Shown: one piece after another, positions 2,929 to 48,521 of the stretch
How the letters are laid out: every line of letters starts with the position of its first letter
Position numbering within the stretch: position 1 is the first letter of the stretch
Assembly: GCA_013306675.1 (NCBI GenBank)
Contig: JABLUY010000183.1
Coordinates: 1 to 64,000, forward strand
DNA: 64,000 nucleotides
Origin: Thraustochytrium sp. TN22
Lineage: Eukaryota > Sar > Bigyra > Thraustochytrida > Thraustochytriidae
Direction: 5' to 3'
Position numbers and translations under genes: made by a program
Notes under the pieces: model-generated
The model's input: only the letters and a program-made list of their open reading frames with translations
Databases searched by the model: none
Told to the model about the DNA's origin: nothing

Positions 2929-3774
2929 CTACATTTGCGAGTTGAGCATCTCCGCTGTGCTGGCCGTCATGCGGTCGGGCTCCTCCGAACGTCTCAGCTC
3001 ATCCGAATCCGTGATCGCGGACGACGTGACCTGCGAGGAGGGCAGGATGCGGCCAAAAAGACGCTTGCGCAGCCAGCGCCGGACCGGGTTTGACCCGAGC
3101 GCAGCGTAGCGTTCCTTCGCATGCCAACAGTCAGTCTCTTCGCTCGACCGCTGCTCCTGTCTGCCGCACTTACCTTCCACGACATGGGTAGGAACGCAAA
3201 AAGCATCGCCTGATAGAGCGTCTTGTTGAGTACACCGTAAATGACGGGCGAGCACAGGCTGCTGAGCGCCGCGGACAGGCCCAGGCAGATCTCGGCCGCC
3301 TCTAGTCCCGGAGGCGCTTGGCCCGTGAAAGCCCCAATTAGAGTGAACAAGAAGTAGATGTAAAGCGGGGTCCACAGCACAAGGATCGACGCGCACATGA
3401 TGATCATGAGTCGCGTCGCGCGCACCTGCTGCGAGTTTTTCGGCTTTCTGATGCGCGTGCTCCGCGGCTTCAGGCGGAATGCGGTACGCGCCGCGCGCCC
3501 GGTCTTGGGCGAAGCTGCCGCGGCCGCCTGCATCGACGAAGCAGGCGTCGCGCTCACCTTACGCACAGCCGCCATTGTCTTGGACATGATCTTGTTTACC
3601 TTGTAGTACGTCAGCACCACGTACGAGATGGGCACACAGGTAAAGGCGCCGGTCGGCAAGAGCACTGCCCACGTGTACACCGGGTTGCAAAAGGCGCCCG
3701 ACGCAATCATACGGGACCTCGTCACCGACGCGTAGTACGCCCCGAGCAAGACAACCCCGCCCCATACCCCAAAG

Positions 3775-3778
3775 ATAT
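3775..3778. repeat. Target-site duplication ATAT (left)
   Basis: Four-base direct repeat flanking the left inverted end of the element at 3779. The same four bases are at 6116-6119. Collapsing the two copies gives a continuous receptor codon series Tyr-Ile-Phe. Confidence 0.8.
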
Positions 3779-6115
3779 CCCAATCCCATCGCCCTAGACG
3801 GAGTTTAATCAGGATAGCCATATTATCCCTAGTAAATCGGCTCTCCTGCTTGCGCTCGACTGACCTGTTGCTATCATGATTCTAATCATTTTTGGAACTT
3901 TCAACTACTGGGTTTGTATGGAAGCGTAAAGTGTTGGTCACTTCCGACTGGCCTGTGCGGATGCTGAGGCCAACTTGGGCTGCATCAAGGGCACGATGGA
4001 CTCGTGCTGAGGCTGCTGCGAGAGGATCTTGAACTATGGCTTGATGGGGTGTCGGTGTAGCTGGCTTGGGCTACGTGGTCGTTCCTGCTCTGCGCTGTAG
4101 GGGTACCGGACGAGGCACTGGCGCTGCTCGAATCGACATGATCGAGGCAAATGGGCGAAGGTGTTCCGTTGACGTTTGTCTTGCGCTTCTTGAAGCCTTC
4201 GTGAGGCTCGACGCGCACGCGCGTGTGCCACTTGGAAAAGCAGGTTGTGCGTTCATTCTTTCTCATGAACACGTGCAGAGGCACACCGCAGATGGTGCAA
4301 CGACGGTGCGTTTGCTTGCCGCAGATGACGCAGAGCCGCTTGGCGGGAATCCTCTTGTTGTTGGCGTTGAAGGATGCCTTTCCCGCTGCCTCTGAGTCAT
4401 GTTGCAGTGCGGCATCGAGGCGGATGTCGCGGGCTTGGCCGTGGTTGAAGAACTTCTGCAACTCGGGGGTTCGCTTGCGCTTACCGGCGGTCACGAGGTC
4501 CCTCGCCGCTTCCCTGGTGAGCCCAGTGGGCTTGGGCATGCTTGGCTGCATGTTGAACTCCACCTGCGCCGTATCGAGCTGCCTGCTCCTGTAGACGTGA
4601 CGGACCATGTCGACAGTGAGGCGGAACGAGACAGTGCTGAGCGCTTCAGAGCGGTTCACCTTGTCGCGGAGGGCCTTTAGCCCGTCGCTGTCTTCGAGGT
4701 TGCTCTTCCTCGCAGCCTGTAAGTAGCGGTAGACCACGATGGCGTTGACAACGAGCTGCTTGTACGTGCGCAACGCGATGTTCTGGTCGCAGCTCAGATT
4801 CATGCACTGCGTGTTGGTGATCTGCTCCACGTACTGTGTGCTTCCGTCGACGCCGCCCTTTGCGACGTTGTATAGCTCCTGCGGTAAGCACTTGATGACA
4901 TGCACGGGCCGCATGGGCCCCTTCAGAGCGACAAGCTTGCGCATGGCGCGCCACAGCCGGAAGTGCGAGCTCAGCACCGCCCCCTCCTCCTCGCCGAAGA
5001 TGGCAGGTGGCTTGGGCGGCGCACCCGCTGTCGATGCTCTGGTGCGCCCATGTCGTGAGCTTGTCCGCCCACGGTTTCAGAGCGCGCTCCATGGCGAGCC
5101 GGGCGTCCGGAGGCACTTCAACGAGGCAGGCGTACAAACACGAACTCGTGCTGGCAGCAACGTAGAGCACGTGATCGATTTGGAGGACCACAGCTTGGTG
5201 CAAGACTTGCGCGCGGTGCTCGGCAGGTATGGCCTTCCACCAAGTCTCGTCCCCCACGTGTTCATCTGGGTGCTCACGATACGTGCGTCTACCGCGCCTC
5301 CAGGCGCGACGCGCGTCTTGATCTCGACGCTGCATAGTACTGACGATGCGTCGCACTCCGCGCCTGGAAGCCGGACGCGAGCGACTCCATCCGGCGAGAC
5401 TGCGAGCCCCGGAACGGGCGTGTGCTGAATGAGGCCGACCTCGAACATGCACTCGCACCACGCGTCGGTTCGTCGACCAACGCAAGTATGTCTTCGAAGT
5501 CTTGCTGCGCAGCGGCCTCAGCACGAGCATCCTCGTCGCCAAGCTCCTCTCCTTCTTCGTCTTCGTCCCCTGTGTCCCGCTTGTCCAGGGGCACGAACTC
5601 GCTGTCGCTGTCGCTGTCGCTGTCGTCCTCCACGCGGTGGTTAGGCCTCGCCGATGCCATGATGTCGCAGTGCGGGCCCGACTCCACGTCCAAGCGCTGC
5701 GGCAGGGGCGTGCGAGCTGAGAGCAGGCACAAGGCACCCGCCAGGGCCGCCTGCAGCCGCGCGCCGCAGCGCCTGCGGCTCCAGCGCGCTCCGCGACGAA
5801 GTCGCGCGCGAGCTCCCCCCAAAGCCGCTCTGGGCGAACTGCCGAGCTCATCTCATCCTAACCACCACGCCTTCGGCCAAAATGAATAGGGGGCAGGAGC
5901 CTTGGGTCGCTTCGAGTGGGCCTCTTCAAGCTCGGCCCCATCGCTGCGTTTTTGATCGAATGCGGAACTAACTTCGCCAGACTCTAGGCCACTTTTTTGG
6001 AGCAAATCGGGAGTAAAGTACCCTCTTAATACGCTTTAGTGCCCCCTGTGCCGGGCGTCACCGAGGGACCCCCGCGTGGTAGGCGGATACGAGTAAGCAT
6101 AGAGGTGTGATTGGG
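3779..6115 (-). mobile_element. TIR DNA transposon, piggyBac-like C-terminus plus YqaJ-like nuclease
   Basis: A 2337-bp element beginning CCCAATCCCATCGCC and ending, read inward on the other strand, CCCAATCACACCTCT. That is 7 perfect bases, with alternating matches beyond. ATAT flanks both sides. CCC ends and a 4-bp duplication recall piggyBac (which uses TTAA). Its minus-strand gene starts with an acidic (DS)n stretch. Next comes a PD-(D/E)XK/YqaJ-like region near 5100-5450, with SPDG, VEIKTR and a Gln-containing helix RAQVLHQ. The stretch 3985-4977 gives YNVAKGGVD, which resembles the YNxxMGGVD block of piggyBac transposases. A C-terminal zinc ribbon follows (CVICGK...CTICG...CF..WH). No DDE core was found upstream of GGVD. 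The gene is broken in at least two or three places, so this copy is probably non-autonomous. Confidence 0.75.
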
Positions 6116-6119
6116 ATAT
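6116..6119. repeat. Target-site duplication ATAT (right)
   Basis: Right-hand copy of the four-base duplication, directly after the element's terminal GATTGGG and before the receptor's upstream coding sequence. Confidence 0.8.
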
Positions 6120-6618
6120 ACAGGTTGCGCACTTGACGGAACGGCACGTTGCGATTGTCCACCACCTTTTTGCGCCGCGTGTACGCAATCCAGCTCAGCG
6201 AGAACACCGTGCAGTGGCACGTGCACACAATACTGAAGCCGTAAAATCCGCACCCAATCCCATGCCCAAAGAGCTCGCCGCCAGACGCCAGCGTCCCGCC
6301 CTGGAAGATAACGATGAGCAGGCCGACAGCCAGATCCGTGAGCGCCTGCCCGACGATTTGCAGAATGAAAATCTGCCGGCGCAGCTTTGGGTCGCGCATG
6401 ACGCCAACCACGATGCTCAGGTTCGACAAGCAGATTAGAATGCCCAGCGTTGTCACAACCCTGTAGTACCACTCCATATTGGCCAGTTCCATCACATTCC
6501 ATCGAATGAAGTCCTCCGGCACATACTCGTTGCAGTCGTGCAGCTGGGAAGCGTGCACCGAGGTCCCACTGACGTTGTTCCAGTCGAAAATGAAGCCGCA
6601 CGCCTCCATGGTATCCAT

Positions 6619-7674: not shown

Positions 7675-9095
7675 ATGACATTGAGCGCCGCGGAGTACGT
7701 GCAGGCGTCCTGCGGCCGTGGCGATGACCCAGCGGAGGCCTTCCCCTTTGATATGCGCGAATCGGTGGCAGCCACCGCATTCTGCGACTGCGAAGACGAC
7801 GTTTCGGGCTTTGAGCTGGACTGGGCCGTGCCTTCTGCGCTGCATGGCTATTACGTGCTGCTGGGCGTGCTGGGCGTGCTCGTGGTGGCCATGAACGCCG
7901 CGATCCTGATTGGCGTGGCGCGTGATCCCAAGATCCAGCAGATGCACAACCTCTTGGTCGCTGGCCAAGCCGTGAGCGACCTGGCGGTTGGCGTGCTCGT
8001 GGTCACCTTCAACCTGGGCACCCTCATGAATGGTGGGGTACTGCTCGGCGGGCAGGTTGGCTGCGCCATCTACGGCTACGGCATCGTTATGACCTGCCAG
8101 ACGACTGTCTTTTCTCTTTGCCTCATCGCGTACTCGCGCAAAATGCGTATTCTTGACAACGAGCAAATGTCGGTGCGTCGAATGTCCATTCTCTATGTGG
8201 CTGGCGTGTGGGGCGGCGCGAGCATGCTCTTGGCCCTGTACGCGGTGCTGGCGCCTCCACGCATGTCGTGCTCCGGGGCCTTTTGCAACCCGGTCTGGAA
8301 CGAGGCGCTCATCATTACCAACGGCATCACGCTCGGCGTCCCCATCGCCTACACAATTATGGTGTATTACCGGATTCACCGGCGGCTCAAGGCGACCATG
8401 AAAGCGGTAGCCTCGGCTCTCTACCACCGTAGCGGCAACGATGCCTACGTCCGCAACCGGACGACGCGGCTCATGCTGCTCATGAGCGGTGCCATTCTTG
8501 TCATGTGGACGCCACTGTATATCTTCTTCATCTTCGGCATCGTCAAGAGGGCCACGCACCACGAGCCAGCCGGATCTCCGATCATCGAGCGCCTCTTGGG
8601 AATCGCCGCGGTCGTCAGTAGCCTGACCAGTCCCGTAATTTACGCCTTCAAGAACAAGACGCTCAAGCTTGCCATGCAGTACTGTCTCCTTCCCACGGCG
8701 TGGAAGCATGCGGCTGCAGAGAGAGGCCGGCAGCGTGCCATCATCAAGCAGAGGCGCCGGGACGCCTCGCAGCACAACGCCAGCTCCTCGGACGCCTCGG
8801 CTGTAACGAGCTTCGTAGAGGCCTGCCCGGAATGTGCCGCGTGCGGATGCAGCTGGTCACTCTGCTGCAACCTTTTCGCAGGCATTCAGGGCTCGCGCGC
8901 TGCAGTGGCTTCGGATCTCCCCGGCTTCCATAACGTGGACGGCCATAAGAAGACCCCGCCGAACGGTGCACCCTGGGCTGGCGCCGGCGCCGCAAACCAG
9001 GTCGACCGTAACGCCGCCATCTCGGACTACGCGCGGTCCATGTTGGGGCCCAAGAACTCGTCCACGTGCTTTCCGGACCATCCCTTGACCTTTGC

Positions 9096-9135
<40 letters not shown>

Positions 9136-9390
9136 CAGAACCAGGACCAGGACCAGGACCAGAACCAGAACCAGAACCAGAATCAGGACACGAACGAGGA
9201 TCACACTGCGGACGCGGACGGTGCGCTCGGGGCCTCCGCTAACGCAAAGGGGACTGACGCGGCGTACAGAGACATGGACAGGCGGTTCCTGGGGACGTTT
9301 GCCGAAGGAACCCGTGCGATGAGACGGCACGATGCAGGCGGGGCGGCCTACAGTTCGCATGCCTCGGGCAGCGACATGGCAACCGTCTAA
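7675..9390 (+). CDS. Rhodopsin-like (class A type) GPCR
   Basis: Plasma-membrane receptor of 571 residues, intact paralogue of the interrupted gene next door. A Cys-containing acidic ectodomain precedes TM1 at about residue 57. TM2 carries GQAVSDLAVGVL. TM3 has a Cys and ends AYSRKMR in the DRY position. TM6 contains WTPLYI near residue 278 and TM7 has SPVIY near 317. The cytoplasmic tail of about 230 residues has a Cys-rich patch (CPECAACGCSW), possibly for palmitoylation. It then has a long Asp-Glu / Asp-Gln / Asn-Gln run encoded by a hexanucleotide repeat near 9095-9190. The start is the ATG nearest conserved sequence; an in-frame ATG at 7513 exists. G-protein coupling is inferred from the fold only, and the ligand is unknown. 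Confidence 0.85.
9095..9190 (+). repeat. Hexanucleotide (GAGGAC / CAGGAC / CAGAAC) repeat in GPCR tail
   Basis: Tandem six-base units encoding Glu-Asp dipeptides that grade into Gln-Asp and Gln-Asn dipeptides. The step-wise GAG to CAG and GAC to AAC changes suggest expansion followed by point divergence. Confidence 0.8.
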
Positions 9391-14594: not shown

Positions 14595-14680
14595 ATGGGC
14601 TTGTCTGCGTCGACCGGGTACGCGGAGCAGGAGGTGCTCGTGCACGTGAGAGAGGAGGAGGTGGTGGAGGAGGAGGACCA

Positions 14681-14713
<33 letters not shown>

Positions 14714-17567
14714 TGAGGAGCAATATGAGCAGGGACAGAGTGCGCGGAGGGGGAGCGCGGCGACGCGGGAGGCGAGGCCGTCCACCGTGAGGCGAGGGTC
14801 AAGTGTGCGAAGCCGCATCACGGTGATCGAGGCGCCGGACGACGGCTTCGGAGTGAGCCAGGACGAGGAGCTCCCGCACGCAGAGCTGTCTAGCATGCGT
14901 GAGTATGTGCTGCACTCGAACGAGGAGGAGGAGGAGGCCGGAGACGCGGCCCTCGAGTGGTCGTCGTCCAGCCTGAGCAGCAATCCCGGCAATGCCGGCT
15001 TCGTGGTGCTCTCCAACGAAGCGCTCGACTTCCGTGAGCCCGACCCTTCAGTCTTCGTGCTGCTCGATCACCTCGGCGTGAGACCGCAGCAGGGCGCCAC
15101 GGCGCTGCAGGTCATCGAGCAGGTGTTGCCGTTTTGCGGCTCACGACACAGCTTCTACCCGCGCATCGATCGCTTCGTGATGCGCATCCTTGAGCAGGCC
15201 GCGGAGGCGGCCCGCACCGAAGCCGTGGAGACCTGGCGCGACCATCTCGGCAACTCGCTGCTCATGCGCGCGTGCCTAGCGCCGTCGGCGGAGCTCGTCA
15301 GGTACTTGGTGGAGCGCGCAGGCGCAAACCCCAGCGTTGCGCGCGAGGCAACTGGCGAGGCGCCCCTGCACGTCTCTACGCGCCGAGGCGCGTTCCAGCT
15401 GACGGAGCTCTTCCTGCGCTTTGGTGCGCCGCCCTCGCCGGAAGATCGCCGGCGCCGCACGCCGCTGCACTATGCCGCGGCCGCCGGCGACGCCACGACG
15501 CTGGCGCTTCTGCTCCTCTACGGCGCGAATCCTCGGGCGCGGGACGAAGCGGGAAAGTCGGCCATCGATTTTGCGGCCATGCGCGACGATGCCGAGGACT
15601 GCATCTCGTTGCTCCATACGAACGCGAACTGGGTCGCGTACAAGGACCGGCAGACCGGACGCACCTTCTACGAGAATTCCGTCACGCAAGAGACCACCTT
15701 CGAGCGGCCGCTCAACGTGGCTCAGGACATGGCGTCAGTGGTGCACGAGGCCAGCAAGGCACTGGCGGCCGTCGTGCCGGCTGCCAGCACCAAAGCCGAC
15801 GGCTCCGCCTCGGGCAAGCTGCAGCGCGTGGCCGCCATGCTGAGCACCTCGTCCGGCAAGTCGAGCGGGTCCGGCGGATCCGCGCGGCGCATTTTGCAGG
15901 AGCGGAAACGCGCCGTGGCGGCGCGCATGCAGACGTGGCGGGAGCTGGCGTGGCGCGAGGGCGTCCGCAAGGCATCAAAACAGCGCAATCTGCGGTCGCT
16001 CCAGGCGCTACGTGAGTACCAGGACCGCGTGCGGCGCGGCGCGGCGACGGCGGTGGACGTTAAGGAGCTGTCCAAGCTGCGCATGGAGCTCTCGGAAGTT
16101 GTCAAGGACCAGCGGATCAAGGAGGACGAGATGGTGTCGCTCCGCGAGCAGCTGCAGCGAGAGCTACAAGAGCGCAGCCGCATCGCGGAGCAGCTCAAGG
16201 AGGCACAAGTGGAGGCGCAGCGCGCCGCTCAGGAGCGCGAGGTCGCCGCGCAGCAGTCCGCCGAGGCGCAGCAGCTGGCGGACCGGCTGGCGGGGCTCGA
16301 GGCGGACCTCGCCACCAAGGCGGAGGAGAATGAGCGCCTCCGCCAGGACGTGCTCACGGAGCGCCAACTGCGCCGTAAGACGCACAATGAACATATGGAC
16401 CTACTCGGCGCAATTCGTGTCTTCTGCCGCATTCGGCCACTTAGTGAGCGCGAACGAGCGCTTCAAGTTACCCAGGCCGGCTCGGAGGCCGCGACCGCGG
16501 CCGTGCTCCCGTCCAGCGAGTGGCGGCCTGGCGGAGACCCGGATACCTGTGCAGTTCCGTCCAGGGATAAAGAGTTCCGCTGCGATGCCTGCCTGGGCCC
16601 GAAGACTACCCAGGAGGAGGTCTTTGGCCAGGTGGAGCCCCTCGTGCAGTCCTGCATCGACGGCTACAACGTGTGCATCTTCGCGTACGGGCAGACCGGC
16701 TCCGGCAAGTCCTTCACCATGTTTGGGCCGGCTGACGAGGCGCGGCCCGAGCTGGACGGCATTGCACCGCGGTCGGTGCGCTCGCTCTTCGCCTTGCTCG
16801 AGCAGGACCGCCAACAGCGGGGCGCCCGCCACGAAGCCGAGGTGCAATGTTGCGGCATCGAGCTCTACAACAACCAGCTGCGGGATCTGCTCGCTGAGAA
16901 CCCGGGCGAGAAAGCTGACGCGCTCAAGGTGCGCAAGGACCGCGCCGGTTCGGTCTACGTGGAGGGCGCCACGATGCAGACGGTGAGTTCCGCGCAAGAG
17001 GCGCTCGACCTCATGCGCCGCATGCAGGGCCAGCGCGTGGTAGCGGCAACCAAGATGAACCAAGAGAGCTCGCGGTCGCACCTTGTGTACAGCCTGACGG
17101 TGCAGTCGTCGAGCCGAACACTCAAGGCAACGACGCGCGGTAAGCTGACCCTCGTGGACCTGGCCGGCTCGGAGAAGGTGCAGCAGTCAGGCGTCTCCGG
17201 TCAAGGGCTCAAAGAGGCTGTCGCCATCAACCAGTCGCTCTCCGCGCTCGGCGACGTCATCTCGGCGCTCACCACAAAGGCCAAGTTTGTGCCGTACCGC
17301 AACCACCTTCTCACGCAACTTATGCAGGATTCCATCGGTGGCAACGCCAAGACGCTCATGTTCATCAATGTGTCGCCGTCCGCCGTTGCCGTGCCAGAGA
17401 CGCTCAACAGCCTGCAGTATGGCACGCGCGTGAAGGACATCAAGAACAAGACGGCGCAGAACCTCGAGACGGAAGAGATTCGCGAGCTGCGCCGCCAGCT
17501 GCAGGAGCTGCAGGACAAACTACAGGCGCGCAAGGTGTCGTCCGTGCAGGCCGTAGAAGGCAAGTGA
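14595..17567 (+). CDS. C-terminal-motor kinesin (kinesin-14) with ankyrin and WW domains
   Basis: Microtubule motor of 990 residues, expected to move toward minus ends. Order: acidic low-complexity N-terminus encoded by a GAGGAC repeat (14683-14715); ankyrin repeats at about residues 215-335 (TGEAPLHVSTRRGA, RRTPLHYAAAAGD); a WW domain at about 345-372, where the second signature Trp is Phe369; coiled coil at about 430-600; motor from Ile607. Motor motifs are intact: P-loop GQTGSGKS 699-706, switch I NQESSRSH 822-829 and switch II LVDLAGSE 853-860. The neck LLGAIRVFCRIRP directly before the motor is the kinesin-14 signature. A short coiled tail follows the motor. Ankyrin and WW domains suggest binding of a Pro-rich cargo or regulator; that is inference. 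Confidence 0.92.
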
Positions 17568-17796: not shown

Positions 17797-20460
17797 CTAG
17801 TACATGTTGCGACCCCGTGGGGGAGACCGCGAGGGGCCACCGCGACGGCGATCGGCACCGCCGTCGCGAAAGCGCGGTGGTGGCGGGCTCCGGCTGCGCT
17901 CGGAACGGCCGCTGCCCATCGGGCGGCCCATATCCCCACCGCGGCGACGGCGCGGATCCTCGTCGCGGCCAGACATGACACTGCGGTCGTCAAAGTCGCG
18001 CCGGCGGCCCCCGCCACGGCCGTCGCGGCTCTCGCGGCCGTCACGGCGGTCGTCGCGGCCTCGAGGCCCGCCGCGACCTCCAGGACCGCCAGGGCCACCA
18101 CGGGCCAGACCTCGGTCCAGGTCCTCAAAGCGGTCGATAATCTTGTTGGACATTTCAATGACGAGCCGTACAGCGCGCTCGACGTTGTCCTGGTTCTCCG
18201 AGTAGACGAGAACCTCAAAGGGACCAACAATGTTTCCTTGGTTTTGGTTGGTCGGCGCGCCCAGCGCCTTGACGATACAGCGCACGCCGCAGTCCTGGAT
18301 ACGCTGGATATTGCTGCCACCCTTGCCAATGATGCGGTGCGCCGCCTTGAAGTGGGGCGGAAACGGCACGTTGATGGCGACAGATCGGCCAATCTCATTG
18401 TTACGCGAGATGGGCAGGTCGCGCACGCTAATGCCGGGCGCGAAGCTGGCGGCTGCCTCGACCGCGTCTGGCGCTGCGGCAACATTGGTACCGGCGGCGC
18501 GCGCAAAGAGGTTGGCGAGCTGCTGCATACTCTTGGGCTCAATGGGCGCGAAAGCAGAGCTCATCCCACCGTCGGTTGCGAGAACCGTGGCTGGTACCTG
18601 GCGCGCCTGCAGGTCCGGGCCATCCATGACGCGGCGCGTACGCACTTGAATGGGCAGCGCGCTCTCTTCGTCGGCGGGCCCGCTCAGAAAGAAGCCCGGT
18701 TCGAGCATCTCTTCGGCGGGACCCACCGCCTCGAAGACGCCGCTTACTTTGCCAACGCGCGTGTCCAGCAGCACGATGGGCGTCCCAGGCTGGATCATGG
18801 CCATGGCAGACCGATGCGCCGCGTCGCTCGCGAGCACGCCGGTACGGAGCATCTCTGCACACCAGTCCGCGCGCTCGCAGCCGATCACAAAGCCGGGCCG
18901 CTTCACGTGGATGGCGCCCGGCGCTACTGGAACGCCGCCAGGGCCGAGCGCCTGTGTGTGAGAGATGGCATTCACAGGCGCCCCGGGCCCGCCGGGGCCC
19001 GCTGGCCCGCCGTGCCCGCCGGGCGCGCCCGGCCGCCGGCCGCCCATGTCGTCGGCACGCGGACCGCGGCGCGCGGCCGAGGGCGGCCGATAGTTCGGGT
19101 TCTCACGCTCGAACTTGGTCATCTCCTCGATATGCGCGTCGACGGCCTCGTACAGCGACGGGTCCGGGCCCTCCATGTGCACGCCAAGCTTGACGTCACC
19201 GATCTGCGATACATCGACCTCGACCTTGGGCTGGCGATACATCATGACGAGCAGCGCGTGGCCCTCCGGCACGGGCAGCTCGGTACACTCGTATGCCATG
19301 GGCACCGGCAGGTCGACCTTGACCTCCGGCTCCCAGCTGGTGAGCATTGCGGCCGTCATGAAGTCCAGCGAGCACGTGTACACCCACTCGACCTGGAACA
19401 TGAAGGCGTGGCCCTTGGCCTCGGGCGGTAGGTCCACAATCGGCACGTCCAGGTCGGCTTCCACGGGGCTGCGCATGATGGCGCAGCCAGTGAACTGCGA
19501 GCAGTCGTTGGCCGCGAAGAGGATGTGCACCTGCGGCGACCGCTCGAAGAGAATGTTGAGCATCTTCATGTAGCACGGCAGGACAGACCAGGCATTGTAC
19601 TTGAGAGAAGCAGCCACGTGGTCCATGGACGTTGTGCGCATGATGACGTAGGCCGGCGCGCCGAGGCTGCCGTTGGCCTGGTACAGCTCCCGGTCGGGAG
19701 TGTCCAGGTCGGCCCCTAGGTCTTCAAGCGGGGATGCAGGTGCGCCGGACTGGCGCGCCTCATTCTGGTAGTTGCCGATAATATCCAGCAGGAGTGTCTT
19801 GGGTGGGGTCACCGGCCCGCGGTCGCCAGCCTCGTCCAGGCCGCCGCCAGGACCGCCGCGCTGCCTCAGCTCGTGTGCGCCGTGCGCAAAGTGGCAGCGC
19901 TGGCCAAACGGACAGTCGCCCGTCTGTTTCCAGTGCTTGCAGATGGAGACCTTGTAGTTTTCGTTGTGCTGCACGATCGTTTTCTTCTCCACGCCGTCCT
20001 CCGTGCTGGTGATCTCCGTGACGGTCATCTTGGTGTCGCCGATCTCGTCCCAGGGCACCACCTCAGGCAGCTCCTCGGGCGCGCGGCGCACGTGCCTAAA
20101 GTGGCAGGTCTGGCCCTTGCGGCAGAAACCGATCTTGTAGAAGAGGCATTCGACACGGTCCTCCTCCTTGGTGTGCTTAAAGATGCAGTCCGGCACCTGA
20201 CACTTTTCGCCCCAGCGGCACTCCGGCATGCGCGCCGGGTTGAGCTCGTGCAGATACTCACAGTCATCCATCTTCATGCAGAGATCCTTGACCCAGTGCC
20301 TGCAGACAACCGTTTTGAACTGGTGCTCGCGCGACCTGCTCACTTGCTCGTTCTTGCCGCCTTGCTGCACAGCGCGCACTGTGTCCTGTTCGAAATCGAA
20401 CAGCAGGTTGTTGTCATGGTCCGCGCCATCGCGCCGAAAGTCCGCCTTGAGCACCACCAT
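17797..20460 (-). CDS. CPSF30-like CCCH zinc-finger protein fused to YTH and KH domains
   Basis: Nuclear RNA-binding protein of 887 residues. It is predicted to act in pre-mRNA 3'-end processing and to read N6-methyladenosine. Three CCCH fingers from about residue 53 (VVCRHWVKDLC, MPECRWGEKC, VECLFYKIGFC) match plant CPSF30 fingers in order. A fourth, separated by an acidic linker, is of tristetraprolin type (CKHWKQTGDC...FAHGAHELR). A YTH domain at about 268-415 contains YNAWSVLP and VEWVYTC, giving the aromatic-cage tryptophans. A KH domain at about 690-775 has the IIGKGG loop. The tail is Arg/Gly/Asp-rich (RGG-like). The start at 20460 gives a sensible N-terminus; the upstream open frame is Gly/Ala/Arg low complexity. 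The first CPSF30 finger of animals is not seen. Confidence 0.88.
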   Translation of the reverse strand: MVVLKADFRRDGADHDNNLLFDFEQDTVRAVQQGGKNEQVSRSREHQFKTVVCRHWVKDLCMKMDDCEYLHELNPARMPECRWGEKCQVPDCIFKHTKEEDRVECLFYKIGFCRKGQTCHFRHVRRAPEELPEVVPWDEIGDTKMTVTEITSTEDGVEKKTIVQHNENYKVSICKHWKQTGDCPFGQRCHFAHGAHELRQRGGPGGGLDEAGDRGPVTPPKTLLLDIIGNYQNEARQSGAPASPLEDLGADLDTPDRELYQANGSLGAPAYVIMRTTSMDHVAASLKYNAWSVLPCYMKMLNILFERSPQVHILFAANDCSQFTGCAIMRSPVEADLDVPIVDLPPEAKGHAFMFQVEWVYTCSLDFMTAAMLTSWEPEVKVDLPVPMAYECTELPVPEGHALLVMMYRQPKVEVDVSQIGDVKLGVHMEGPDPSLYEAVDAHIEEMTKFERENPNYRPPSAARRGPRADDMGGRRPGAPGGHGGPAGPGGPGAPVNAISHTQALGPGGVPVAPGAIHVKRPGFVIGCERADWCAEMLRTGVLASDAAHRSAMAMIQPGTPIVLLDTRVGKVSGVFEAVGPAEEMLEPGFFLSGPADEESALPIQVRTRRVMDGPDLQARQVPATVLATDGGMSSAFAPIEPKSMQQLANLFARAAGTNVAAAPDAVEAAASFAPGISVRDLPISRNNEIGRSVAINVPFPPHFKAAHRIIGKGGSNIQRIQDCGVRCIVKALGAPTNQNQGNIVGPFEVLVYSENQDNVERAVRLVIEMSNKIIDRFEDLDRGLARGGPGGPGGRGGPRGRDDRRDGRESRDGRGGGRRRDFDDRSVMSGRDEDPRRRRGGDMGRPMGSGRSERSRSPPPPRFRDGGADRRRGGPSRSPPRGRNMY

Positions 20461-20970
20461 CCTGGTCTGGCGCAGGAGAGCCCTACGCGAGAGTACTCGA
20501 GGTCGGGCTCGTCCGGCTCGGGCGTCGGAGCCCAAGCGACGTCGAAGCTGGCTGTCTGCCTGCGCGCCGAAGCCGCCGCCACCACCGCGGCTGCCGGCTT
20601 GCGGCTGCGCGCCGCCGCTGCCCGCGCGCGCCGCCGCCGCCGCGCCCCCGCGCCGCGCCGCGCCGCGCCGCCGTTCAAGCTTTGTCAATCTGGCGGCTTG
20701 CGAGTCGCCGAAGGCTGCAGCAGCGTCGGAACCTCTGGAGCCTTTGGAGCTTCCGGACCCACGTTCGCGAAGGACAAAACGGTGGGCGGCCTGGCGCGGC
20801 ACGTGCGCGTGCAGAGTGCTCAGAGCCGAGCCGAGCCGTGCCGTGCAGTGCAGTGAGCAGCTTGGATGGATGGCACGGGTGGCAATCATTCTCTTTTAAT
20901 CAGCATTGTCAGACTATAGGAAACTACGTGGGCAGGTACAGCGGCCGGCGGCACGCGGGCCGTGACGGAG
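20461..20970. other. Intergenic upstream of CPSF30-YTH gene
   Basis: Promoter and leader side of the CPSF30-YTH gene and 3' side of the next minus-strand gene. Low-complexity GCC/GCG runs near 20570-20680. No coding frame supported. Confidence 0.5.
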
Positions 20971-36415: not shown

Positions 36416-39400
36416 TTAGAAGCGTGTGTTGAGGAGGGACGGGCGGCTGCGATCGCAGCTCTCGCAGTACATGTGCGTTGATGCATTGTGGCGCGTGCAG
36501 TAATTGCACTCCCACATGCCGTCCGGGAGGGGAACCTCGCCGGTGGCGGTGAGGCCGCAGACGGCGCAGACTGTGGCGGAGGCCTCGTTGAAGGCAAAGG
36601 TGCAGGTGGGGCAGACCCATGTCTCCTGCTCGCGGAGCGCGTCCAGGTCGATACGGTCCGGGTCGATGGTCTGAAGATCGGCCGGAACCGCGAAGACCTC
36701 GACGAAGCGGTCAAAACTGGTGAGGCCGTGACCATCCTGGTTGATGAGACCGACAACGAGGGCGATGTCGGCCGGGGAGAAGCCGAGCTTGAGGTCCTGG
36801 AGCATGCGCTGAAGCTCGGCATGCGTGAGCTTGCCGTCGCCGTCCGAGTCGCGCTGGGTCCACTGTGCGAGCAGGTCAATTTCGGAGCCCTTGCGACGCA
36901 GCGCCTTGACGAGCGCGACACCGAGCTGCTGCATCTTTGCTCGCGCCGGGAGCAGGTGGCGCTCGCTGGCCTCGGTGAAGAGCTTGGCAAGCGGCGTGTC
37001 GCCCCAAAGCATCTTGGTGCGCCGGCGCAGGCGCAGCAGACCCTCGTAGTGATCGATGCGCTCCTTGATGGTGTTGGCGGCGAAGCAGCCCTCGAGCAGC
37101 TCGAGCTCGCGGTCCGAGAAGTGCATCGCATTGTTGGCAAACTTGAGGGCCGCCATGACGATTTCCTTCTCCTCGCCCGAGCCGAGCTGCATGCGTGGGC
37201 TGCGATCGAAGCAGCTGCCGTCCTCGATGGTGAGCAGCGCAAAGTCGCTCGTGAGCTCGGCCTGCGGCGTGTGCAGGATGCGGCGCAGTGTCTCGGCCTC
37301 GGACAGCGAGACTGCCACGTAGACCTTGTCCTGCGCGTAGGCCGCGGCGGAGGCCGCGTCCATGACCAGGCGCTCCGCCACGGTGCGGCGCAGGCGGAAG
37401 TCCTCGCCGCTCGTTGGCGCCGTGGCAACCGTGAGCGCACGCACCGCGGCGGCGTTGGGCGTAAGGCGCGCTGTCGTCATGAGGTGCTGGTGCAGCAGCG
37501 GTACAAGCTTGCTGAGCTCCCGCGTAAAGGAGAGCGGGGACCACTCCAGCACGACCAAGATGTTCTTGAGGCGGCGGTCGCCGGTCCCGACCCAGCGCAC
37601 GCGAAAGTAGTTGTCGGAGAGCATCAGATTGCTCGGGTAGTCCAGCGTGGGCTGGCTCGTGCGAACGCGAAAGTCCGCAAAGTGGTAGAAGGGCTGCTCA
37701 CCCGCCACGCCCGAGGGCTTGGCGTTGAGGTGCGCCACGTTCCACGGATTGGCCTGCTCGTCGTCGCGCGAGAAGCGGCTCACCTTCTCCTGCTCCTCCT
37801 CGGCCTCCTCCTCCTGCTGCTGCTGCTGCTCCTGCTCGTTCTCGTTGACGATCTCCGCTTCGAGCTCCTCGGACTTGAGCTCCTTGGTGTAGCGCACGCG
37901 CTCCACCACATCCGCAACGAGTGCCTGCGCCTCGTCCGAGGGCGCAAACTGGGCGTTCTGCTGCACGAGGTCTCGCACCTTGGCGTGGAAGGGCTGCGGG
38001 TCTGGGACGACGCTTGGCACGACAAAGCCCACCGGTTCGCGGAAGAGCTGCACACATTCGCTGAGCCACTGGCGCTCCTCGGGCGCCAAACCGGCGTCGC
38101 CGCCCTCCTCGAGGAAGCGCATGAGCCGCTGCGCATGGCCCACCGGGTCCGGGGCGTCCTTGAGCAGCGGCGAGTGCGCCTTGACGTCGCCCACCAGGGC
38201 GCTGAGCGCCGACTTGCGCCAGCAGTTGAAGAGCTCCTGGTAGCTGAGCATGCTGTGCTGCAGGCGCTCCTGGTGCATGGAGTTCACCAGGAGCCAGGCC
38301 GGCACGTCCAGCGGCTTGACCGCCTTGTGGCGCAGGCTGAGGTCCTTGCGGATCAGCTGCTCCACCTCGGCAATCAGATAGACCTCCACCTTTTGGCCTG
38401 CACCGATACCGCGCATGCGGAAGGCTCCCTGCGAATAGTCGCGAAAGGTCATGTCCTTGCCAATGGTCACCACGGCGCGTGCATCGGGCGCCTGCTTGAT
38501 GTCCATGCCGGTGGTGTGGATCTGGTCATAAAAGGTAAAGCGCCGCGCCCACGCCGCACTGCGAGAGGTGCAGGCTCTTGCCCGAGGAGCGCTGCAAAAA
38601 CATCTTGCGGTCCTGGCGGTCCAGGTACACGACGCCGTCGAACTTGGAGCGCGGCAGAAAGTCCAGCAGGTAGTGCGCCACCTGCTCGTTGTCCATGCCG
38701 GTGATGAGGGCGCCCGTGTCGATGAGCGCGTGCACGGGCGGCTCGCTGGCCGCCACGTCGCGCAGGAGCGACTTGGCCGTCCACTCCTCCTTGTGCTTGA
38801 CCGTGACCACCTCGTCAGAGCTAAGCACGTGCATGATCTTGCCGTCCGAACCGGGCTCGTACATGCACGAGCCCAGATCATTCGGCAGCAGGTTGCTGGG
38901 CGTGCCGGAGAAGCCGATGCGCTTGCGGAAGAGCAGGTTCGACCCAAGCTCGTGGCCGCAGGCGGAGATCTTGATGGATTGGAAGTTCATACAGGCCGGG
39001 AAGACGTGCTGCTGCAGGTAGTGCACGATGACGCGCTCCTCCTTGCGCAGGAGGTGGAAGAGGCGCTCCAGCTGCTTGGGGTCGTTCACCTGGAAGAGCG
39101 GCAGCGGCAGCACCGGGAGCTGCTCGCCCAGGCCGCGCGAGGCGTGCTCGAGCCAGCCGCGGAAGAGCTTGCTCGAGGGACGCTGGTCGCGCGGCCCCAC
39201 CTCGCGCGAAAAGTCCGCCTTGAGCTGCGTCACGATGGTGCGCATGTCCGACAGTCGCAAGCCCTCGTAGCGGTAGCCGAGGAAGGTGAGTCCGATGACG
39301 ACATCCGGGTGCGCGAACTCGGACGAGCGCGACGGCACGTCCTTGCCGACAAAGGGAACGGCCATGAGCTTGCGCGAGAGCGGCGTGCGCCGCTGGTCAA

Positions 39401-42400
39401 TGTTGGCCAGGTCCACGTGGTTCAGGATGCCAAAGGAGACGCGGTCGATCTTGGCCAGCACGTGCGGGAGCAGCACGCGGATCCAGTCGCGTGCCAGGTT
39501 CATGAGCTTCATGGCATCGCCCTCCTGCTCGCGCCACATCTCCAGGAACGCCTCGGTCTCCTTGTCGCGCGCACCGCCCTCCTGCCAGAGGTCGTCCACC
39601 ACCATATAGCGAACGAGCGCGTCCGTGGGCGGCAGGTCGTGCGCGTTGCGCTGGATCCACAGCGCGCACCACTCCGCGGCAGGCCGCATCAGGCGCGCGT
39701 GGTAAAAGGCGTCGTCCAGGAGCACCAGGTGCGGGTTGCGCTGCAGTGCGTGCGCCTGATAGCCCTCGTGCACAGCGGCCTCGATCTCCTCCAGAAGCGC
39801 GCTCGCCTCGGCGCGCGTCTCCTCGGTGGTGAAGAAAGCCTCCAGGCCCTCGCGCGCGTCCTCCGGGAAGAAGGCGCCCAGCAAGTGGATGGGCATGTCC
39901 CAGCGCGCGCCCGACATGTCGATCGGGTCCTTGAGCCCAATGGGGAAGTTGAGCTCGGAGCGCAGCGGGTGCAGCAGGACGTCCACCTCGTCCATGATGA
40001 GCACGCCGTCGCGCCACATGTCGAAGATAGGCACCATGGAGTCGGCCATGTCGCAGCGCGCCTGCATCGTGTCGCGCAGGTGCATGATCTCCTTGTTTTG
40101 CCGCAGGCTCGACGTCGGCTTGAGCACGTCCGGGTCTACGCTCTCCAGGGAGTGCATGTGCTCCACGAACTTGAGGAAGAGCGACTTGATGGCGTCCGGC
40201 GACGCCACCACCACGGACCGCGAGCGACGCGCCTCATCCAGCTTGTCGAAGACCGCGTTGGCCATGCCCACGTCGTCGGCGCACGAGCGGTCAAACTCAA
40301 GCGTGAAGACGCGCTTGGTGATGATGGCCGCGAAGCGCGACCGCATGATGTGTCGCGTCTGCTCCAGGAGCGCCGTCGGCATCACCTGCGTCACCAGTGT
40401 ATCGCCGTCCGCCAGCAGGAGCGTCAGCAGCGGCGCCACCACCGTCGTCTTGCCGGCGCCCATGATCATCTGCTGCACGTGCGAGCGCCCGTGCGCCACG
40501 TCGTCCGCGAACGACCGCACGATGTCCACCTGCCGCTCACGGAGCACGATGTCGAAGACGTATTCGAACACCAAGAAGCGCGGGTCGAAGGACCCGTCGT
40601 CCTCCACGTAGTGGCGAACCGTGGCCAGCGTCTCCGCGAGACTGCGCGCAAGCTGGTCGGCCCGGAAGTCGGCGCCCGACGCGGTCGATCGCTGCGCGCG
40701 CTTCAGGTCGCGCGCCAGCTTGGCCGCACGGTTCGCGTGTGACACGCGGTTCGTGTGCACCAGGACGGGCACCACGCGAGCCAGAAGAGAGTCCACCTGG
40801 GCCGCGTCCAAGCTCGGGTTCACCTTGGTCAGGTCGTCCGCGGCCTTGCGCGAGAGCAGCGCCTGCGTCAGCAGCGAGAAGCTGATGGAGTCACGCAGCT
40901 GCGCGTACCCGCGCAGCCGGAGCCGGCCGTCCGGGTCCTCCACGTGATTGGCCTCGGCCAGAACGTCCGCGATGGTCTCCTGCACGATGCGCGCGTCCTC
41001 CATCTGCATCGCCTCGAGACTGGCCACGATGCGGTCCAGCGCCGAGTCGGACCGCGACTTGAGCACAGGCTCCAGCTGCCGCCGGTAAGCAGCCGCGTAG
41101 CCGGCCACGTCCTCCTCAAGGCGGGTCAGCATATCGCGCGCCACGTTGGTCTGCGCCGCCGGGTGGGTCGACAGATCGAAGGGCAGGGCGTCCGCCGGCG
41201 GGTCCGCCGTGGACTTGACCACCTCGATGAAGTCGTCCCACAGGTCGGCCAGCGGCCGCTGCATCAAGTCCGCCAGCGAGCGCGACGCTGCGTCGCTCGA
41301 AGCGTGGCCGTTCCCGTTGCCCACGGCGGAGCCTTCCTGGTCACGCGCGTGCATCGAGTCGCGGCCCGTGTCGCGGATGGCCGCAGGCTGGATCGGGTGC
41401 TCAATGCCGTTCGGGATGTCCTTGAGCACGAAGGCGTCCCGGAAGCGGAGGCGCGGGTCGTTGTCCGCGTTAATGCCAGGCCAGACCTCGCGGAACTCGA
41501 CGTCGATGAGGTCGAGCCACGTCTTGACGTCTGACTGGCGGCCCTGCGCCGACTGCAGGTTGATGCCGTTGCGCAGCAGGCCGAGCGAGCCCGGGTCCGT
41601 GGGAACAGCGGGCCAGCCGCGACGCGGTTGCTTGAGGACCGCATACAGCTGCGCCATGTGGCGCGAGTTGGAGGCCTCCACCTCGCCGTCGTTGACGCTC
41701 TCGCGCCCCCAGCGAGAGAGCTTCAGGTGCAGATAGCGCACCATGATCTCGCCGAACCAGTGCGGGTTTGCAGCCTCCTGCGTGCCCATGGGCGAGGTGA
41801 CCATCTGATACAGAAAGGTGAAGCCGAGCTGGCGGTTGACGCCGCTCTCCTCGTCCATGATGATCTGCTCGTCGAAGATGACCTCGGTCAAAAAGCCGGC
41901 GAACGAGCTCGTGCCCTCGCCGAAGCGCGGTTGGAAGTGCAGCCGGCGCAGCGTAGTCCCGTGCGCATCGTAGTAGTCGAGCGTCTGGCTCTGCACCTTG
42001 TGCCATGGCGCGCCGCCGACGCGCGGCGCCGGCGCCTTGAGCTCCACCGGCGTCAGCTCCGGGACCGCCAGGCCGGCGAGGCGGTTCTTGACGAGCGGCG
42101 TGCCGGACGAGGTCAGCCGGCACGCCTTGAGCTCCTCGTCGTGCGAGAGACGGCAGGCCGCCGACACGCGCGGCAGCTTGCCCAGGTAGCTGTCAAACTC
42201 GCGATGCACCTCCCACGGCGAGCGGATGTGGTCGCGCGCGTACATGGTGGCCAGCGAGAGCCGCAGGCGGACGGCGTGCGCATCCGGGTGACAGTCATCC
42301 GAGGTGTCGTCGAGCATCTCCCAGATGAATCCCTCGTCCGGGGAGAACGGCACGTCCACCGTGCAGGTGGGCGCCAGCTTGTAAGCCTGCTCGTACTCGC

Positions 42401-45400
42401 GCTTGAGCAGCTTGAGGTGGACCAGATACAGACTCGCGCTGAGCTCCTGGCTCACCAGGTACGTGGAGCTGGTGTGCACCGGGTACAAAAAGTAGCGCGT
42501 ATCCATGGTCTGCAGCCAGGCGAAGGAACCGCGGTCGCAGAGGATATCCGTGCTAAAGGGCTTACCCTTGAGGCGCGGCCGCGTTGCCGGGTGGTTGGGC
42601 ACCAGGAACTGTACCTCGCGCAGGCCGTTCATAAGCAGGAGCGCGTGCGCATCCAGGAGCTCGCGGTAGCGCGGGCTCATGTTGCACACAAACCAGCCCG
42701 CCTGATCAGTCAGCTCCAAACGGCCGTTCACAGGCTGGATGCGCAGCTTCAGCCGTGGCAGCTCCACCATGACGACGCCGCCCTTCTCGTCCTCCACGGG
42801 CGCCCAGGCGAGAATGTGCGAGATGTCCTCGACCTTGGTGAGGAGCGTGATCATGCGAAAGAGCGCCGTGCCGCGGGCCGGCACCTCTAGGAGGTTCACC
42901 AGGCGCATCTGGTTGGCCGGGTCCTCCTCGTCGAGGTCCTCGATCTCCTGAGCGCGCCGGCGCGCCGCCTCCTCGGCTTGCGCAGCCTCTCGCGCGCGCC
43001 GCCTCTCCTCGGCCTTGGCCTCGGCGGCCTCCACAGCGCGGCGCGCGGCCGCGTCCATGTCGACGCCGTCGCCGCCAGCGCCCACGTCCTCCTCCTCATC
43101 GGAGATGGCCTCCAGGATCATGCCGCGCTCAGGGTGAAAGGCGAGGACCCAGGCCTCGCGGTTCGGCTGCCGCTCATCCTCAATGCGCACCCACTCGCCG
43201 GAGCGCGCCACGGCCGTCACAACCTGGCCGAAGCCCAGCGTGCCGGTCTGATTGCGCACCACGCCCTGGTCGCCGTCCTCCGTGGGAGCGTTGCGCACGC
43301 GCGCCCCATCGTGGCTCACGACGCGGTAGCGCTGGCGCTCCGTGACAAGCTGCTCGGCGCTGGCGATCTGCGCCTCGTTTTGCGGGTTGAGCAGCCACTC
43401 CGCCGCAAAGGCGGAGTTGCCGTCCGTTTTGGAGAGCGCCAGGCGCGCCGCCGCCGGCGTGAAGCCAAGAGCACACAGGTCCAGCACGGTGGTCTGATCA
43501 AACTCGCGCGGCGCCTCGTCCGCGCCGGCTTGCGAAGCGGACACGTCCTCCACGACCAGGCGACGCTGCTCAGCCGCGTCGACGCCTGCAATCACGGTGC
43601 GTGAGAGCGTGAGCGACTTGCGCTTGGAGGCGGTCGAGTAGGGTTTCTGCACGATGCTGCAATCCTCCCTGATCTCGAGCTGCTTGGAGCCGAACCAGGT
43701 GGACTCGTCGTCGAGCGGCTCGCCGCGCACGACGCCATCCGCGCCGTGCCAGAACTGGTACGCCTCTAGCAGCGCGCTAGGCAGCACGCCAAAGAGGAGG
43801 CGGCTCGGCACAAAGGTCTCCACGACGCCGTTCCGGTTGCGGTCCACCACGAGCGATTCCTCCAGGTTAAAGATGGCCTTGAGGTCGCCACAGGCGCCAA
43901 ACATGGCCGTGCTGGCCTGCAGCGAGTGGTGCGAGAAGCTGGCACGCGAGCTGAAGACCAGCTGCCGGTAGATGCGGCGGCCGTGGCTCACTAGGTTGAA
44001 GACCTGGAGCACCTGGCGATCCTGGTACATGACGAACTCCTTCCAGGTGGACGTGACGACCTTGCGCACGGTGGGCTGGCGGCTGGCGGCGCCGCCGCGC
44101 ATCAGCTGCGCGAAGCTGCCACCGCCGGGCCCGGACGGGAGCGAAGGCTCCTGCTCCACCTCGTGTTCCGTGTGCACGCAGCCCATTGCGCGCGCCACAA
44201 TGGCGCCGCTGGACGCATTGTCGTGAGGGAGAAGCACGCGGTACGGCATGCCATCCTTGTAATGGCTCTGCAGCGCGGGCACCAGGAGCTGCAAGATCCA
44301 ACGCTCCTCCTCGACGCCCAGCATCTCAGTGACCTTGTCCTCGTCAAAGGCGTCCACGTGGCGGTCGTAGAGAATGCCATGGTAGCGGATGGCCTTCACG
44401 GCGTTCGGATCCTCCTCCTGCTCGCCCTGGCCACCCCCCTGGGCGGCGCCGTTGGGGCCCCTGCCGGTGGGCGACCGCCCGTCCTGCACGCTCACAGCGC
44501 TCCGCTGCGTGCCGCAAACTTGGCACTGGCCCGCGCCGGCCGCATTGCGGAAGGTACAGACGCCGCACATCCAGCCTTCGCCGCCTGCGGGGGCGGCGTT
44601 GCTGCCGCCCGGGGCGGGGCGGCTGTCACGGTCATCCTGGACCTCGTCGCTCGCGTCCGTGGGGCAGTCCACGCCATGGTCGTCATCCTTGGGCTCGTCC
44701 CAGAGCTTGAGGTCGTACTGCGTGCCAACGACGTGCACCCAGTTCCGGTGCTGCTGCTGCGCGACGATGCCGCAATGGAGCTGGCGCTTGCCAAAGATGG
44801 TATGGAAGTCGTTGAAGTGCGTCATGCTGTCCGGGAGCGGCTTGAGCTCGTCGTTGCGCCACATGATCTGCGCGGCCTGGATGTCCAGCGTCATTTCCTT
44901 GTCGGGGGAGAGGAACTTACCGCGCGTCTCGAGCGACCAGCCGCCGGCCTCGCTCGGGAGGTCCTCTACCGTCTCCGTCAAGCTCTCGCCCTTGGTGTCG
45001 AGCGCCATGCGCACGATTCGAGTCAGCGTCTGGTCAAAGACCGCCTGCGAGGTGTTGCGCAGACGGCCGAGAAAGCCGACCAGGGGCGCGCGCTGCGTCT
45101 GGAGCATGGCGAAGAGCTTCTGCTCTGGCACGTTCGCGAGCAGTCGCTTCTTGGCCTGGCCGTTCTCGTCCACTTCCTCGCGCGGGCTCAGATTCGGCAC
45201 GCGCATGGTCTTGGAGCCGACGCGCAGGTACAGCGGGCGGCTCTGGCCGAGGTACTTGGCCAGCGACCCCGGCGCGAGGCGCGAGGTGTCGACGCCGTGC
45301 GCCTGCAGAAAGCGCGTGAGGCGCTGCTCGGGCGGCGCCGTGGACTCCACCGAGGAGCCGTAGCCCAGGAGCGCGGACGGCTCGCCGAGGCCGAAGCCAT

Positions 45401-48400: not shown

Positions 48401-48521
48401 CGCCCGTCGGCACCTCATTGTTGTTGTCTACAAAGGGGTCCGCCAGCAGCGCGCAGAAGGGCCCGGTCTCCCAGATATTGGGGCGCTTCTGCTCCTCCTG
48501 CGGCTGCCCGGGGGCCGCCAT
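36416..48521 (-). CDS. Giant DUF3638/DUF3645 helicase-like ATPase with NZF fingers, UBA and EF-hands (one apparent frameshift)
   Basis: About 4,000 residues. The first segment (48521 to about 38550) begins with a ~200-residue domain containing NAGAGLNYHP. It then has an NZF/RanBP2 finger near residue 1317 (WMCGVCTFRN), a UBA-like domain near 1678-1715, an SH3-like segment and a charged coiled coil. DUF3638 follows with Walker A MGAGKTT at 2687-2693 and DEVD near 2844. DUF3645 has VPFVGKDVPSRSSEFAHPDV. After a frame change at the GGG of 38548-38550 the protein continues FTFYDQIHTTGMD and QGAFRMRGIG, the SF2-like C-terminal motifs. Two EF-hand-like loops (DSDGDGKLTHAE) and two terminal NZF fingers follow (CPTCTF, CNYCTR). 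TF after CxxC is the ubiquitin-binding form. Homologues are often labelled ubiquitin hydrolases; activity is unproven. Confidence 0.82.

Follow-up and report, generated by a model that had tools for sequence, protein, structure and literature searches.

A transposon insertion in a receptor gene of Thraustochytrium sp. TN22, with a piggyBac-like tail and a probable remnant of a YqaJ-type nuclease

We found that a class-A GPCR gene on the minus strand of a Thraustochytrium sp. TN22 contig is split by a 2337-bp transposon (positions 3779-6115) with ATAT on both sides. As an event this is an ordinary transposon insertion into a receptor gene; what adds interest is a nuclease remnant inside the element, which was absent from the initial annotation of this DNA. 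The reading towards which we lean, as somewhat probable, is that the element derives from a piggyBac-related cut-and-paste DNA transposon, as a dead and non-autonomous copy that was internally deleted and moved in trans, and whose parent carried the nuclease.

The window (the whole stretch of 64,000 nucleotides analysed here) has a GC content of 0.671 and a eukaryotic gene content, including a kinesin with ankyrin and WW domains, THOC5, a YTH/CCCH/KH protein, Vps16, a snurportin-like protein, and GPCR genes. The ORF at 14595-17567 (plus strand) encodes ankyrin repeats followed by a WW domain and a C-terminal kinesin motor, and that at 17800-20889 (minus strand) encodes a CCCH zinc finger, a YTH domain, a sub-cut-off match to Dev_Cell_Death and a KH domain. 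An open frame of 3331 aa occupies positions 38526-48521 on the minus strand.

The interrupted receptor gene lies in two parts on the minus strand, a 5' half at 6120-6618 and a 3' half at 2994-3774, both delimited by Pfam and by a scan of possible joins. We presume that the break falls near the start of TM4. An intact neighbouring GPCR paralogue on the plus strand (7675-9390, aligned over 7675-9387; Pfam and join scan) served as the reference. This paralogue continues beyond its seven-helix part into a long tail of Asp/Glu/Gln/Asn repeats (about 9085-9200). For the scan, 625 flank joins around the ends of the element were scored against the paralogue. An open frame of more than 300 aa was kept in 203 of the 625, all open removals being of length 3n+1, and the best join removed 2341 bp (score 679; the next removal length, 2344, scored 669). 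The receptor joined in this way is open for 427 codons and aligns to the paralogue in 158 gap-free columns across the join, 73 of them identical. It matches the 7tm_1 profile at 50.3 bits (profile positions 2 to 260; cut-off 30.5), as compared to 24.9 and 21.9 bits, both below the cut-off, for the two interrupted ORFs, which extend slightly into the element. The join scan and the rise in the 7tm_1 score thus bear out the initial annotation in two respects, namely that a DNA transposon entered a receptor gene with a 4-bp (or TA) duplication, and that removing 2341 bp restores a receptor frame matching the neighbouring paralogue.

The element, delimited by sequence, repeat analysis and join scan, starts with CCCAATC (3779-3785) and ends with GATTGGG (6109-6115). 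The target duplication copies adjoin it at 3775-3778 and 6116-6119, as seen in the sequence and the receptor join scan. Its terminal inverted repeats (3779-3788, plus strand, and 6106-6115, minus strand) are exact over 7 bp and match at 9/10 of the first ten bases, or at 13/14 positions when ATAT is counted in, so that the ends are shorter than the 15 bp first described. The window has 621 pairs of perfect 7-bp inverted ends that are flanked by 4-bp direct repeats and lie 0.5-6 kb apart, five base-shuffled windows have 255-283 each, and such short ends are therefore non-significant alone. The case for insertion rests on where the ends lie: both coincide with the break of receptor homology, for which the chance is about 4e-5 (ends no more than 6 bp from the break on both sides, with equal base frequencies used).

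ATAT is its own reverse complement, and ATAT with CCC...GGG ends would leave the same empty site, AAAGATATACAG, as TA with TCCC...GGGA ends. Since the two partitions share one empty site, this locus is compatible with either set of ends, and the earlier statement that it defines them to the base was too strong. Symmetric AT duplications correspond to the removal of 2339 or 2343 bp and put the receptor out of frame, on the assumption that the pre-insertion gene had been in frame. The GC content of the element is 0.61 overall, 0.48 in its first 200 bases and 0.568 in its last 250. A search for further copies within the window returned only low-complexity matches. Inside the element there is also a 20-nt inverted repeat (4001-4020 and 5508-5527, 95% complementary), which may be due to chance. 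We rejected splicing of the element as an intron on the basis of a few GT and AG sites near its ends, tried by eye, none of which was in frame.

The coding remains of the element all read on the minus strand, in four pieces. Piece A (5466-5660) is an acidic N-terminal stretch with 25 D/E and 5 K/R among its 65 aa. Piece B (5284-5466) holds a stretch resembling the YqaJ-type active site, with SPDG (Asp codon 5389-5391) and VEIKT (E-x-K codons 5317-5325). Piece C (5045-5287) holds the C-terminal YqaJ motif IPAEHRAQVLHQ (Gln codon 5207-5209), and piece D (3988-5037) consists of 350 open codons resembling the C-terminal part of a piggyBac transposase. The order along the element is hence the acidic stretch, SPDG...VEIKT, IPAEHRAQVLHQ, and the 350-codon frame with YNVAKGGVDGSTQ and a Cys/His cluster. 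Codon scoring in 40-codon windows, with usage taken from four stretches of the window, gave as the top minus-strand frame f0 for starts 5755-5635, f1 at 5575 only, f2 for 5515-5335, f1 for 5275-5095 and f2 for 5035-4195. The coding frame of the element shifts three times along its length. Scores were positive in the acidic stretch (two windows) and in most of the tail. The nuclease frames were the best of three yet negative, at -0.05 to -0.30 bits per codon, and three plus-strand windows also scored positive (+0.19 to +0.22). Because of these negative scores and the positive plus-strand ones, the argument for coding in the nuclease part leans on the profile match. We rejected sequencing errors as the source of the frame changes, short of proof, as long ORFs elsewhere are intact, up to 3331 aa.

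The presence of half of a YqaJ-type nuclease, which we take to be of the PD-(D/E)XK kind, is supported by comparison with a broad profile of 73 rows, made of lambda exonuclease and 72 ORFs from 72 PF09588 loci. The PF09588 matches that fed this profile came from 13/299, 12/296, 8/296 and 30/299 genomes. At least 4 of the 72 loci are lambda copies by their lambda-identical score, so the real diversity is below 73, and the first profile seed was 19 ORFs chosen by a D..E-x-K..Q pattern, which biases it towards the tested motif. Pieces B and C together scored 17.2 bits; none of 5000 and none of 10,000 shuffles did as well (best shuffle 14.1), and the only ORF of the window close to this score (13.5) belongs to the same element. 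Piece C alone scored 16.9 bits, equalled by 0/10,000 shuffles, and piece B alone 2.4 bits, equalled by 25/10,000, with its alignment on the catalytic SPDG. The broad profile is to be weighed in the light of its history, as it was built only after a narrow A118-type profile (13 exonucleases retained from 79 ORFs) had missed the nuclease at -1.4 bits, with scores at least as high in 106/5000 shuffles and 4/405 window ORFs.

In the catalytic columns, for which we assumed lambda exonuclease residue numbering, D and K occupy all 73 rows, E 68 and Q 72, and all four residues are present in the element in the same order. The D-to-E spacing of 22 lies inside the 8-26 of the profile rows; the K-to-Q spacing, measured across a frame change, is about 36 codons, against 16-30 in the rows. 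Piece B aligns only from profile position 88 of 185 onwards, so that the front half of the domain is missing. Among PHROGs, phrog_434 (RecE-like exonuclease) was the top match for piece C (E 0.018) and for B and C together (E 0.0091), while the whole 564-aa read-through reached an E of just 0.12. Other searches were negative: Pfam gave no YqaJ match for any piece of the element, NCBIfam gave no relevant match for the pieces, phmmer against the PDB recovered neither the piggyBac nor the YqaJ family, and tblastn against phages gave no match for the nuclease. In viral_contigs, queried for piece C by short near-exact peptides, a design without eukaryotic genomes as such in which absence carries little weight, 9 stretches were returned and none was confirmed. 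Lambda exonuclease itself, at 100% identity, turned up in genome_contigs assemblies from several bacteria, among them Shewanella, Leeuwenhoekiella, Oceanobacillus and Streptomyces, probably as lambda DNA contamination.

A piggyBac-type tail is moderately supported by comparisons of piece D. Its sequence YNVAKGGVD (4846-4872, minus strand) is in register with piggyBac Y439-D447, and over piggyBac 439-451 (PDB 6x67) YNVAKGGVDGSTQ is identical at 8/13 positions. Comparison with piggyBat shows the invariant Y, N, G, V, D and Q, together with a later N and Y. The pattern YN...[GK][GA]VD...Q has a single occurrence in the window translated in six frames and none in 200 base-shuffled windows. The core of the tail was matched by 9/2000 shuffles against piggyBac 439-487 and by 32/2000 against piggyBat; for piece D against the whole piggyBac tail (439-594) the figure was 170/2000. 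With a two-sequence piggyBac/piggyBat profile, the ORF of piece D came first among the 570 ORFs of the window, and 5/10,000 shuffles did as well; among 2327 decoy ORFs, one scored above piece D on the core profile. The probability given by hhalign for the tail was 4% (E 0.0095).

Further along piece D lies a Cys/His cluster (4225-4332, minus strand) of the form CxxC-x7-CxxC-x4-H-x10-C-x4-H, with another His 22 residues upstream. The cluster fits the C-terminal domain of PLE-wu and PiggyBat as described in PMC8086355. Together with the upstream His, this pattern, which was written post hoc, occurs in 1/570 window ORFs and 0/2327 decoys and is unique among 20,000 shuffles. On score, the stretch itself could not be aligned with the T. 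ni domain, as 1129/2000 shuffles were as good. The strongest library match of the element was to phrog_1321 (function unknown, 92 positions; E 4.8e-5), at residues 215-242 of piece D, and reaches into the Cys/His cluster from upstream.

The catalytic front of the transposase is a different matter. Pfam found DDE_Tnp_1_7 (PF13843) in none of the pieces, the region of the third aspartate alone being recognisable; of the DDD triad just the D447 position was found, and D268 and D346 were not recognised. The position of D450, which in piggyBac is conserved and reported as required for efficient excision in cells, is Thr in the element. Judged by catalytic domain, the element stands outside formal piggyBac membership and is piggyBac-like only. 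An AlphaFold2 model of piece D alone had a mean pLDDT of 35.8, and its fold was not used. Searches for relatives of piece D by short near-exact peptides, in sets without eukaryotic genomes as such and where absence carries little weight, returned 3 pattern stretches in viral_contigs and 22 stretches in genome_contigs; none was confirmed. Phages gave 11 records with E of about 8 only, the degenerate pattern YN..KGGVD had no match in viral_contigs, and an alignment of piggyBac, piggyBat and piece D returned 74 stretches from viral_contigs, none confirmed.

ATAT can be seen as a variant of TTAA that preserves the central TA, and the site is palindromic. It is also on record as a minority site for piggyBac-type elements: in CsuPLE1 it is found at 2/21 insertion sites, numbers 9 and 16, as given in PMC4273485, and one piggyBac line of Macrostomum lignano has an ATAT insertion site, where TTAA adjoins one end and ATAT the opposite one (PMC8717057); the target variants in the available part of PMC10813416 are other ones, without ATAT. 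In the piggyBac structure as described in PMC7351741, N440 reads A-2 and a pocket with Y439 holds T-3 of the hairpin. The equivalents of both residues are kept in the element, as are the T-3 and A-2 bases in ATAT. The element may hence offer a natural case bearing on which of the TTAA bases are essential. The termini begin with CCC, as in the piggyBac superfamily, for which PMC10813416 describes CCC starts and inverted repeats of 4-24 bp; the termini of CsuPLE1 have CCCAG (PMC4273485). PMC2872659 gives inverted repeats of generally 12-19 bp and a CC[C/T]T start for piggyBac, as against 7 bp exact (9/10) and a CCCA start here. The initial annotation had been reminded of piggyBac by the CCC ends and had held the ATAT site against it. 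The likeness of the ends stands and is now joined by a piggyBac-looking tail, found by means other than a library profile. The objection was too cautious, since ATAT, being reported for CsuPLE1 and Macrostomum, is no argument against piggyBac.

These observations could be accounted for as follows. A full transposase from elsewhere in the genome would have inserted the CCC...GGG ends at ATAT with a 4-nt stagger, splitting the GPCR gene. The parent element would have encoded a transposase and a YqaJ/RecE-type PD-(D/E)XK nuclease, perhaps employed in end processing or donor-site repair, and internal deletions would have cost this copy the front parts of both, including D268 and D346 of the transposase, with one small frameshift in addition. 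At each edge of the nuclease, a frame change falls where protein is missing, namely the YqaJ front and the first two transposase aspartates. Two deletions would account for these losses if the parent had its nuclease gene ahead of its transposase gene; the third frame change lies inside the nuclease. The three frame changes, set against the 427 open codons of the receptor, mildly favour a copy that was defective before its transposition. The initial annotation took the insertion to be recent, which goes beyond this evidence.

Several other readings bear on parts of this evidence. An element targeting TA (Tc1/mariner-like or other), with TCCC...GGGA ends and a transposase lost or never recognisable, would leave the identical empty site, and the weakness of the piggyBac similarity by profile would suit it, the likeness being then due to chance. 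We regard it as unlikely: Pfam found no Tc1/mariner-type domain (DDE/D transposase) in any piece, two piggyBac-type tail features stand in the correct order, and the ends begin with CCC. The YqaJ half-domain might instead suggest an ISL2EU-like element (PHIS superfamily) reduced to its second ORF, as most autonomous ISL2EU candidates in the available literature have a YqaJ-bearing second ORF. However, ISL2EU duplicates AT, and the symmetric AT partitions break the receptor frame; its ends are described as usually starting with GG, and the families of one survey, in its available part, are all from animals. In addition, Pfam found no THAP/HTH or PHIS transposase domain in this copy, which may be incomplete, and the tail reads YN..KGGVD. 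An ISL2EU origin is therefore improbable. About equally improbable is that the YqaJ likeness is itself due to chance, the element being an ordinary decayed piggyBac-like copy. The unmatched Pfam YqaJ domain, the failure of the first profile, the empty tblastn in phages and codon scores below zero for pieces B and C all speak for this; against it, each of the two pieces scores by itself on the broad profile and in the right order, D, E-x-K and Q are in place, and phrog_434 is the top PHROG for piece C.

The nuclease and the tail may also be one genuine fusion, merely frameshifted, in which a PD-(D/E)XK nuclease stands ahead of a piggyBac-type tail and which is not a deletion product. The best coding frames do adjoin without a gap, and the acidic N-terminus, nuclease, third-aspartate region and Cys/His cluster follow the piggyBac order with the core replaced. 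Yet the absence of the YqaJ front half (the match of piece B starting at 88/185) suggests deletion, and two of the three frame changes lie at the edges of the YqaJ domain, so that we give this reading a small chance. A smaller one still goes to a parent that was a single fused transposase, in which a YqaJ-type nuclease replaced the RNase H-like catalytic front and the target-reading and end-binding piggyBac tail was kept; if true, the catalytic core of a cut-and-paste transposase would have been exchanged. A deleted piggyBac-related copy with a nuclease-bearing parent remains the reading that we prefer.

In comparison with known systems, the element shares with the piggyBac superfamily (T. ni piggyBac, piggyBat, CsuPLE1, PLE-wu) its CCC...GGG ends, an acidic stretch at the N-terminus, YN..KGGVD at the third aspartate, a cluster of one His plus seven Cys/His and, if the duplication is ATAT and not TA, a 4-bp palindromic TA-centred target. 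Unlike that superfamily it is without the D268/D346 region and DDE_Tnp_1_7, has Thr for D450 and a shorter inverted repeat, and carries a nuclease half-domain mid-element. With the YqaJ, lambda-exo and RecE nucleases (PF09588) it shares SPDG, E-x-K and I-P-x-x-(Y/H)-x-x-Q-V-x-x-Q, in that order; it differs from them in that the front half is gone and the remainder is divergent, undetected by Pfam, and placed within a eukaryotic transposon. Among the literature naming both YqaJ and piggyBac (mostly open-access, with few subscription papers and preprints, and in the parts available), there was no report of the two in one element.

ISL2EU (PHIS) transposons carry a gene for a YqaJ-type exonuclease, of which the element described here would have a half-domain, but as described in PMC4482050 and PMC9179366 they have an AT duplication, ends that usually begin with GG, a THAP/PHIS transposase and a separate YqaJ ORF, and are known from animals. 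If another transposon family, unrelated to ISL2EU, also has a nuclease of this type, the enzyme may well be useful to cut-and-paste elements, for example in handling the donor gap. KolobokP, as described in PMC9587614, differs by its His-Me finger nuclease, the 5'-RR ends of Kolobok and long terminal direct repeats, whereas the element described here has 5'-CC ends and the site ATAT. It is nonetheless the closest published idea that we met in the literature as available, being a eukaryotic DDD/E transposon with an acquired nuclease, from a superfamily that duplicates 4-bp TTAA (PMC9587614).
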